Of a stretch of DNA of 64,000 nt, positions 8,221-9,563 are shown one piece after another. Within the stretch, counting starts at the first letter, position 1, and every line of letters starts with the position of its first letter. The notes under the pieces are model-generated. The model saw only the letters and a program-made list of their open reading frames with translations, did not search any database and had not been told where the DNA came from. The translations under genes and the position numbers were made by a program. This DNA comes from Deltaproteobacteria bacterium (GTDB lineage: Bacteria > UBA10199 > JACPAL01), in the NCBI GenBank assembly GCA_016180845.1, contig JACPAK010000001.1, positions 489,497-553,496 on the forward strand, read 5' to 3'.

Positions 8221-8901
8221 TTAATCTTTCGGGTCAGTTTCATGACTCGCTTTCCCTGCTTCTTTCTCCAGATTCTTAAAAACATCCGGGGTTGTAGATT
8301 TCACGCCAATTTTGGTGACCCAGTTGGGAACATGCCCGCCCAAATCGACGATCTCTTCATAATATACCAGGGAGTGTCCGGATTTCTCGTCTGACTGAAC
8401 GAGAAAGCAACCTCGAACGAAGTCGACGTTGGCGGCGATCATTTCCCAGCATTGTTTGAAGATCTGTCTCCCGGCCAGGGTCTCATCGTTCGTGTAACGC
8501 AGGACGAACCAGCGGTTTTTCACCGGGAAAGGTGTGCTAACTATCTGAAAAACGGCCCCTTGCCATAGACCCCCAGACTGGCGGGGAACTTCGGTCCGAT
8601 ATTTTTCTGAAACTTTCTTCAGGAGATTGGCCTCTCGGGTCCCGGCTGTCTGGATCGCTGAGATCCCCTCGTCGGTGATGTAAAAACTCGCTGGCATCCG
8701 GGGCATGAACGAGGACCAGTCGTTGAGCCGAACAATAGCGTCCCAGACTTTTTCCGGCGATGCCTTAATCGTCCCTTGGGCATGCATCTCATTCGGCTTT
8801 CCAGAACTACCCTTAATGTAGCGGATTGACAGATTCTCATGGGCAATTGCATTGCCAGCTGCAGATACCCCGAGGAATACTATGACAACGAGTAATTTCA
8901 C
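8221..8901 (-). CDS. exported SRPBCC (START-like) protein
   Basis: A 226-aa protein with a signal peptide (start region KLLVVIVFLGVSAAGNAIA) followed by a Bet v1/SRPBCC domain: GTIKASPEKVWDAIVRLNDW is the usual first strand and helix, and the domain closes with VYYEEIVDLGGHVPNWVTK. Such domains bind lipids or other hydrophobic ligands in a deep pocket. A GTG at 8901 is chosen because it overlaps the stop of the GIY-YIG gene as GTGA and starts exactly at the signal peptide; an ATG at 8949 would add 16 residues lying inside that gene. No ligand can be named. Confidence 0.75.
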   Translation of the reverse strand: MKLLVVIVFLGVSAAGNAIAHENLSIRYIKGSSGKPNEMHAQGTIKASPEKVWDAIVRLNDWSSFMPRMPASFYITDEGISAIQTAGTREANLLKKVSEKYRTEVPRQSGGLWQGAVFQIVSTPFPVKNRWFVLRYTNDETLAGRQIFKQCWEMIAANVDFVRGCFLVQSDEKSGHSLVYYEEIVDLGGHVPNWVTKIGVKSTTPDVFKNLEKEAGKASHETDPKD

Positions 8902-9152
8902 TGTTTGAGGTTTCCGGAAATCAGCGCTTCTTTCTTGCTCCGATCCCATCCTTTTATCTGTGCTTCGCGTCGCATCGCCTTTGCCCTTGTTCGGTGTTTT
9001 TCATGGTACAAAAGTTTTCTGAATCCAAAGCTTTTGGTGAATTTGGCGCCGGTTCCGTTGCGATGCTGTTCCATGCGCCGATCCAGATCGCTTGTGTAAC
9101 CGGTGTAGTATTTCCCATCAGAAGACTCGAGAATGTAGACAATATAAGGCAT
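8898..9152 (-). CDS. small GIY-YIG nuclease
   Basis: An 84-aa single-domain GIY-YIG endonuclease. The two hallmark strands are YIVYILESSDGKYYTGYTS (residues 3-21), the conserved Arg lies in DLDRRMEQH, and the C-terminal helix REAQIKGWDRSKKEAL is typical of the short UvrC/Slx1-like bacterial group. The ATG at 9152 follows the terminator of the tRNA-Asn gene. An upstream extension would run back through that terminator and the tRNA, so it is not used. The next gene is coupled by a GTGA overlap. Proximity to an intron-containing tRNA raises the question of a link to intron mobility, though this type lacks the DNA-recognition domains of homing enzymes. Confidence 0.88.
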   Translation of the reverse strand: MPYIVYILESSDGKYYTGYTSDLDRRMEQHRNGTGAKFTKSFGFRKLLYHEKHRTRAKAMRREAQIKGWDRSKKEALISGNLKQ

Positions 9153-9163
9153 CAGTTTAAACA

Positions 9164-9190
9164 AAAATACCCCCATGAAGGGGGTATTTT
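9164..9190 (-). terminator. rho-independent terminator after tRNA-Asn
   Basis: A perfect 11-bp stem (9164-9174 with 9180-9190) and a 5-nt loop. On the minus strand the stem ends in a T-rich run (TTTTTGTTT). It lies 6 nt beyond the 3' end of the tRNA-Asn gene. Confidence 0.85.
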
Positions 9191-9196
9191 GTTCTA

Positions 9197-9563
9197 CTCC
9201 GGGGGTGGGATTCGAACCCACGACCAAGTGATTACAGGTTCCCACCACTTTCATGATGGCCTGGACTATCTCTTTACCCTCCGCATTGTGCGGATTGGGT
9301 AGTGGGCGCTCGAGGGGAGATTATTCTTTCGTCACTCCCTAGTCTCTGCACCTTCCTCCCACCTTTATATTGGGAGGCTTGGCTCAGGATTCCCTTATCC
9401 TCTGGCGTGGACGTAGGGTTCCCTGAGTTCACCCACTTTTCGACCGCAGTTACCTGCGGAAGCTGCATATGGGCATGGGTTTCGCGGGTTTACTTCTCGT
9501 CTCCCGTTTAGCCACCATGCCTCCTTTCTACAGTCACCTACTCTGCCGCTGAGCTACCCCGGA
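9197..9563 (-). tRNA. tRNA-Asn(GUU) interrupted by a group I intron
   Basis: On the minus strand the 5' exon covers 9563-9530 and the 3' exon 9234-9197. Joined, they make a 72-nt tRNA: acceptor TCCGGGG with CCCCGGA, D-stem GCTC/GAGT, anticodon stem GGTGA/TCACT, 7-nt loop CTGTTAA with anticodon GTT, T-arm GTGGG-TTCGAAT-CCCAC and discriminator G. The short variable loop excludes tRNA-Tyr. Only a junction after T at 9530 and before T at 9234 gives a 7-base loop, so the intron splits the anticodon between its second and third bases. No 3' CCA is encoded. A terminator follows 6 nt downstream. Confidence 0.9.
9235..9529 (-). ncRNA. group I self-splicing intron in tRNA-Asn anticodon
   Basis: A 295-nt insertion with group I features: the preceding exon base is U, the last intron base is G, and the core sequences are present. 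These are CAGAGACTAG (minus strand of 9340-9349, the P7/S element) and AAAGAGATAGTCC (minus strand of 9263-9275, the P7 3' element). A GC stem CCGCAG/CTGCGG capped by a GTAA tetraloop (9444-9459) and a CCGCA/TGCGG hairpin (9281-9293) fit peripheral helices. It has no ORF. Size and host site resemble the compact IC3 introns of bacterial tRNA genes. I could not settle the P1 pairing by eye. Confidence 0.87.

Follow-up and report, generated by a model that had tools for sequence, protein, structure and literature searches.

Group I introns in bacterial tRNA genes have been described from tRNAs for Leu, fMet, Ile, and Arg in reviews and surveys, and Asn is not among the hosts that they name (PMC3984707, PMC8450103, PMC4033280). 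The first-pass annotation of the locus described here had named the same four hosts, which matches these sources. Introns of 22-49 nt have also been claimed in the Arg, Gly, and Lys tRNAs of cyanobacteria (PMC5733544), a length too short for a group I ribozyme. Among phages, all introns known as of 2014 were located in protein genes (PMC3984707). PMC12641178 refers to a 2025 preprint (bioRxiv 2025.07.03.662931) on a 'novel insertion site' in tRNA genes of Patescibacteria. Since the introns described below are found to a large extent in Patescibacteria, among other groups, the preprint, to the extent that it is characterized there, may already describe the same site.

Here, we describe a group I intron that interrupts a tRNA-Asn(GUU) gene between positions 35 and 36 within a 64-kb window (the whole stretch of DNA analyzed, 64,000 nt) from an uncultured bacterium. 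Introns of this type resemble those in tRNA-Leu(UAA), fMet, Ile(CAU), and Arg of cyanobacteria and Proteobacteria in that they are group I introns of the anticodon loop that follow a U, end in a G, and often lack an endonuclease. They differ in their host tRNA, in their position at 35/36, in a core that bears P7.1, and in an HNH family encoded in P1. The group I introns of tmRNA likewise interrupt a tRNA-like gene in many bacterial phyla (PMC11915505), but they occupy a T-loop site and few of them carry endonucleases. What appears to be new here is the host tRNA, the position, the dedicated HNH family, an endonuclease remnant, and a wide distribution, whereas the type of ribozyme was already known.

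The split tRNA-Asn gene and its junction

The interrupted gene and its immediate 3' flank comprise the following features:

9530-9563, minus strand: 5' exon of tRNA-Asn(GUU), positions 1-35; its last base, U35, is the splice-site U, and the same sequence is present in genome G003
9235-9529, minus strand: group I intron of 295 nt, from A (9529) to the terminal G (9235), delimited by the RF00028 match, the splice-site search, and the empty sites of relatives
9197-9234, minus strand: 3' exon of tRNA-Asn, positions 36-73 (U36 A37 A38 through the discriminator G); CCA is not encoded
9162-9188, minus strand: intrinsic terminator directly 3' of tRNA-Asn, AATACCCCC-TTCAT-GGGGGTATT-TTTG, recognized by reading the sequence

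Joining positions 9563-9530 to 9234-9197 (minus strand) yields 72 nt that ARAGORN calls as tRNA-Asn(gtt) and that adopt a cloverleaf as their minimum-energy fold (-31.7 kcal/mol). Brute-force joins submitted to ARAGORN mostly returned spurious anticodons, and a cloverleaf search with fixed splice rules was used instead, with a U before the intron, a G at its end, a 7-base anticodon loop, and paired stems specified. This search returned one solution at the locus, U/AGAAAG...CCUG/UAAUC (slashes mark the splice sites), which places an intron of 295 nt between positions 35 and 36. The first-pass annotation had proposed these exons with exact coordinates, as ARAGORN, the fold, and the splice-site search confirm, and its split between bases 35 and 36 agrees with both the single splice-site solution and the intact genes of relatives. 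It had also called the restored tRNA perfect; the 72-nt length, the 7-base loop, and the GUU anticodon stand, but the word is slightly strong for a molecule whose D stem and anticodon stem each contain a G.U pair. A terminator scan located the stem of the downstream terminator at 9183-9170, although such sites are also expected by chance.

Empty versions of the site were identified among relatives. Genome G002, from the same order, encodes an uninterrupted tRNA-Asn with 99% identity to the joined exons over all 72 nt, and further intact genes were found in G013 (97%), G004 (89%), and G001 of the same family (82%). When the joined tRNA was used as a query, two separate halves were recovered in the window genome and in G003. 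The natural intact genes of relatives indicate that the reconstructed junction exists in nature. Splicing after U33 is an alternative that the sequence allows at five other loci (L053, L057, L061, L063, and L064) but not in the window, and a shared internal guide, GCAG, favors 35/36. We also considered that the split gene is an assembly artifact or chimera, given that the genome is assembled in multiple contigs. Fourteen genomes of the class, as well as many other records, share an identical architecture at the identical site, which renders this scarcely credible. ARAGORN detects no tRNA in the unspliced window, and the site stayed hidden because tRNA finders skip genes of this kind.

The ribozyme core and a probable dependence on splicing

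Screening of the 64-kb window with cmscan revealed RF00028 as the sole Rfam match above threshold, at 9541-9242 (minus strand; E = 1.3e-16; 73 bits, where the gathering score is 50). The match is untruncated and spans model positions 1-253 of 253, and this significant full-model result substantiates the group I identity first proposed from the letters of the sequence. Helices P1-P9 were marked from the window sequence and evaluated for covariation in an alignment of 24 introns at the tRNA-Asn site:

9463-9466, minus strand: internal guide sequence GCAG, forming P1 with the 5'-exon CUGU (9533-9530), in which a U.G wobble marks the splice site; the guide does not vary among 24 related introns
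9444-9459, minus strand: P2 hairpin, CCGCAG-GUAA-CUGCGG; changes on both sides in 6 of 6 pairs, 87% of cells paired
9302-9436, minus strand: P3, 9436-9430 with 9308-9302; 100% paired in 24 introns, 2 pairs changed on both sides
9383-9427, minus strand: P4 (9427-9422 with 9388-9383) and, inside it, P5 (9418-9415 with 9395-9392); P4 97.9% paired with 3 pairs changed on both sides, outer pairs of P5 weak
9355-9377, minus strand: P6, 9377-9372 with 9360-9355; 96.5% paired, 6 of 6 pairs covary
9264-9344, minus strand: P7, the guanosine-binding helix, 9344-9340 (GACUA) with 9268-9264 (UAGUC); invariant in 24 introns
9315-9339, minus strand: P7.1 hairpin between the 5' strand of P7 and the 3' strand of P3, 9339-9335 with 9319-9315; 96.6% paired, 5 of 5 pairs covary
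9275-9301, minus strand: P8, 9301-9297 with 9279-9275; 94% paired, 4 of 5 pairs covary
9242-9259, minus strand: P9 hairpin, CCAUCAU-GAAA-GUGGUGG; 83% paired, 6 of 7 pairs covary

Across P1-P9, standard pairs occupied 92.8% of cells in the alignment, and 226 cells had changed on both sides when compared to a shuffled mean of 69, with none of 500 shuffles as high. Control helices generated by sliding were just 35-45% paired. Most pairs covary in P2, P6, P7.1, P8, and P9, and P3 and P4 covary in part; P1 and P7 never vary and are therefore uninformative on covariation, neither for nor against. RNAalifold independently recovered most of the same helices. A single-sequence fold of the window intron misses P3 and P7, which is expected for a pseudoknot. 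The P3-P7 pairing on which the first-pass annotation had staked its claim is conserved, with covariation in P3, and the U before the intron and the G at its end, which it had also reported, recur in the splice-site search and in the 24-intron alignment.

Between the 5' strand of P7 and the 3' strand of P3, a covarying P7.1 is present and P7.2 was not seen in the window intron; P7.1/P7.2 hairpins are characteristic of subgroup IA, to which the P7.1 hairpin may point. P1 of the window intron comprises 4 pairs only. P10, which is common among group I introns and not strictly required, has 0 contiguous pairs with the 3' exon in the window intron, such that its 3' splice site would rest on the terminal G and P9. 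An intron of the bulge-helix-bulge type, removed by proteins rather than by a ribozyme, would share the anticodon-loop position with the tRNA introns of Archaea and eukaryotes, and no computed result favors it. The complete and covarying group I core, the bacterial host, and a canonical archaeal and eukaryal site at 37/38 rather than 35/36 make such an intron exceedingly unlikely here. The window intron is a genuine group I intron, very likely self-splicing to judge from its sequence, and the ribozyme itself is ordinary.

In the mechanism that we propose, the gene would be transcribed as a 367-nt pre-tRNA-Asn, the intron would fold as a group I ribozyme, and the guide GCAG would pair with CUGU at the anticodon-loop end of the 5' exon. 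Guanosine bound in P7 would attack after U35, and the freed U35 would in turn attack after the terminal G of the intron, so that 35 is ligated to 36 and the GUU anticodon is re-formed.

The tRNA content of the window genome, compiled from RF00005 matches plus ARAGORN, comprises a nearly full set. No second tRNA-Asn was found by these means in the 98.3%-complete, 12-contig genome, and the intact copy that the first-pass annotation had named as contrary evidence was looked for without success. Asn accounts for 79 of 2205 codons in five genes of the window. The detection of a sole tRNA-Asn gene suggests that the cell probably depends on its splicing, which we infer is probably essential.

Alternatively, the insertion may be dead and the split gene a pseudogene, with an intact tRNA-Asn residing in the missing 1-2% of the genome. 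The distribution of the assembly over 12 contigs is compatible with such a gap, as is the absence from it of an intact tRNA-Ala(UGC) or tRNA-Ile(GAU) gene (G000). However, these two tRNAs are usually encoded in rRNA operons, which assemble poorly and usually do not include Asn, and both were probably lost with an unassembled rRNA operon (intron-split genes being the alternative). Moreover, the exons are identical over 72 nt to those of the split gene in G003 while the intron cores differ by ~13%, a pattern that needs continued selection on the exons, and the ribozyme core covaries. A dead insertion is thus improbable.

The endonuclease remnant and mobility of the intron

Some introns of tRNA-fMet carry a PD-(D/E)XK-type endonuclease (I-Ssp6803I type). 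The Asn introns are similar to them in combining a tRNA-targeting homing endonuclease with an anticodon-loop group I intron, but differ in the tRNA that is interrupted and in encoding an HNH protein in the P1 loop. Introns in tRNA-fMet with an unrelated ORF were also observed in the class of the window genome (L068 and L077-L079). Two features of the window intron, both overlooked by the first-pass annotation, relate to the HNH protein:

9493-9529, minus strand: what is left, in the P1 loop, of the beginning of an HNH homing-endonuclease ORF, with a Shine-Dalgarno sequence AAGGAGG (9526-9520) and ATG (9518-9516) followed by V A K R E T R
9472-9487, minus strand: what is left of the 3' end of that HNH ORF, which encodes ..H R E T H A in L055; the stretch matches L055 at 15 of 16 nt, with none of 2000 shuffles as high

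The first remnant is identical at 34 of 37 nt to the ORF start of L055, from the same order, and again none of 2000 shuffles scored as high. The introns of the close relatives L055 (G003) and L050 (G009) are 536 and 541 nt long, and each has an ORF in the P1 loop that begins ~11 nt past the splice site and extends to the guide; the HNH ORF is intact in the P1 loop of L050, L055, and L056. The window intron lacks an intact endonuclease ORF and holds the two ORF ends only, with ~240-250 nt deleted between them. Alignment of 19 members of this ORF family revealed 26 columns that are invariant across phyla. PF01844 (HNH) was detected in 18 of the 19 (best E = 3.4e-5), with L055 below the Pfam cut-off, and a profile of the family matched solved structures weakly, in the C-terminal region of a group II maturase (E = 0.0045).

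These observations suggest that the ancestor was a mobile intron whose P1 loop encoded an HNH homing endonuclease. The enzyme would have been taken out by an internal deletion of the length given above while its two ORF ends stayed, and the present copy would be a resident, no longer self-mobile, of a homing site common to many bacteria and phages. We consider it highly probable that the locus is a transcribed split gene with a group I intron that self-splices at 35/36 and that was once mobile and has since lost its HNH enzyme; within this account, the splicing chemistry, the essentiality, and the homing by HNH are what we infer.

A further ORF is encoded next to the split gene:

8898-9152, minus strand: ORF for a small protein of the GIY-YIG family (PF01541, E = 2.9e-18), next to tRNA-Asn on its downstream side; a possible tRNA-linked endonuclease

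The intron might still be mobile if a free-standing endonuclease, such as the product of this ORF (9152-8898), were to cut empty tRNA-Asn genes. Collaborative homing of this kind concerns mobility only and is compatible with the splicing proposed above. Besides the position of the ORF, it is consistent with similar ORFs that flank the intron-bearing tRNA-Asn in L053, L061, and L074, and with one GIY-YIG ORF that ends inside the intact tRNA-Asn of G002 (L203:1265-1510). Nevertheless, GIY-YIG genes were near only 4 of 70 intron-bearing loci among the wider-scan matches listed (see below), small genes of this family are common in bacteria, and the terminator separates the gene from tRNA-Asn in the window. 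We therefore regard continued mobility by this route as unlikely.

At least two types of ribozyme use the tRNA-Asn 35/36 site. In a tree of 99 introns, the window intron grouped with L049, L050, and L055 (97% SH-aLRT), and a separate set (99%) comprised L062, L063, L064, L066, and L074 together with introns from Omnitrophota, a Melainabacteria record, and Pseudomonadota; the tree is a quick one from a short alignment with some long branches, and its deep relations are uncertain. The introns of the second type that were inspected lack P7.1, and a P10 of 4-5 pairs is present in 11 of 12. The HNH family occurs with either type, as L111 (Omnitrophota) is of the second type, and the endonuclease may have moved between ribozymes.

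Distribution among bacteria and phages

We sampled 60 genomes (that of the window and 59 others), of which 46 belong to the class of the window genome. RF00028 matches were present in 25 of the 60, and an intron-bearing tRNA-Asn was identified in 14 of the 46, in all cases compatible with 35/36. Other RF00028 host genes in the sampled genomes were tRNA-Lys(CUU), Leu(UAA), Arg(UCU), fMet, tmRNA, 16S, and 23S, and group I introns seem to be plentiful in the class.

A wider scan with a sequence pattern, in which each of 85,000 species was represented by one genome, yielded at least 113 matching stretches. Among 80 loci in the matches listed, at least 68 were tRNA-Asn(GUU) genes split at the same place, with introns that measure 184-716 nt; the matches listed also include a single gene each for Lys(UUU) and Lys(CUU). 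The intron occurs in at least 10 phyla as named in the records (Patescibacteria, Omnitrophota, Nitrospirota, Elusimicrobiota, Pseudomonadota, Myxococcota, Planctomycetota, Bacteroidota, Cyanobacteriota, and Margulisbacteria); most of these records are draft genomes and may contain binning errors. The strict pattern was found in just 2 of ~339 other sampled bacteria outside the class, which suggests that the site is widespread but not common. The rarity that the first-pass annotation had implied does not hold, given the many phyla and phages with group I introns at this site. Collections of plasmid and phage records contained no match to the window intron itself.

Several other interrupted genes were observed in these surveys. 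The window genome contains a second group I intron (L002:1480-1786; G000 C6:18005-18222, plus strand; RF00028 38.9 bits, below the gathering score) that splits tRNA-Arg(UCU) between 34 and 35, as is also the case in G016 (L082); no other tRNA-Arg(UCU) was found in the window genome. Seven genomes of the class have group I introns in tRNA-Lys(CUU), apparently at 33/34 (CU/CUUAA; L048, L051, L052, L059, L060, L075, and L076), and two have group I introns near the 3' end of an apparent tmRNA gene (L070 and L083). In the cultured Gluconobacter sphaericus (L112), a group I intron is located between 35 and 36 of tRNA-Lys(UUU), and this strain could be a laboratory model for a 35/36 intron.

The sequence pattern of the wider scan was identified in 19 stretches of IMG/VR. 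Sixteen of these are tRNA-Asn(GUU) genes with both halves present, mostly with introns of 197-199 nt, and one further tRNA-Asn is cut by a contig end. RF00028 confirms the introns of L225, L231, and L232, and L232 additionally encodes phage-like genes and ten other tRNAs. At least one intron-bearing viral contig is thus clearly phage, and others may include bacterial DNA that was wrongly assigned to viruses. Some of the viral-contig introns look nearer to other ribozyme types than to that of the window. A match to a phage tRNA intron in a Pelagibacter phage proved to lie between two capsid genes and not in a tRNA.

Other viral records contained related elements. A 735-kb uncultured phage (L258; LR756501.1) has an apparent tRNA-Leu(UAA) with a group I intron in its anticodon loop, and viral contigs L235 and L229 have group I introns at 35/36 of tRNA-Lys(UUU), the assignment of L229 being less sure. 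A weak match to a permuted tmRNA (RF04321, 47.9 bits against 47) was detected near an intron-bearing tRNA-Asn on another viral contig (L228:1897-2363, minus strand).

Collectively, our findings extend the few intron sites listed for bacterial tRNAs by tRNA-Asn(GUU) 35/36, one that is widespread and not unique. The statement made in 2014 that all phage introns known at that time lay in protein genes (PMC3984707) would be contradicted by group I introns in phage tRNA genes. On balance, we lean toward the view that tRNA-Asn(GUU) 35/36 is a homing site across much of the bacterial tree and its phages, kept by its own P1-loop HNH family, which would have passed between distinct ribozymes such that the site is defined by the endonuclease and not by the ribozyme. 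The window intron would then represent the end of this cycle, with the enzyme deleted and the ribozyme retained because the sole tRNA-Asn cannot do without it. Such a homing cycle is open to testing, given that the site exists in full, partly deleted, and empty form and that a single endonuclease family accompanies more than one type of ribozyme. Finally, a tRNA-Asn that is 'missing' from a genome annotation, especially among Patescibacteria and Omnitrophota, can be an intron-split gene.
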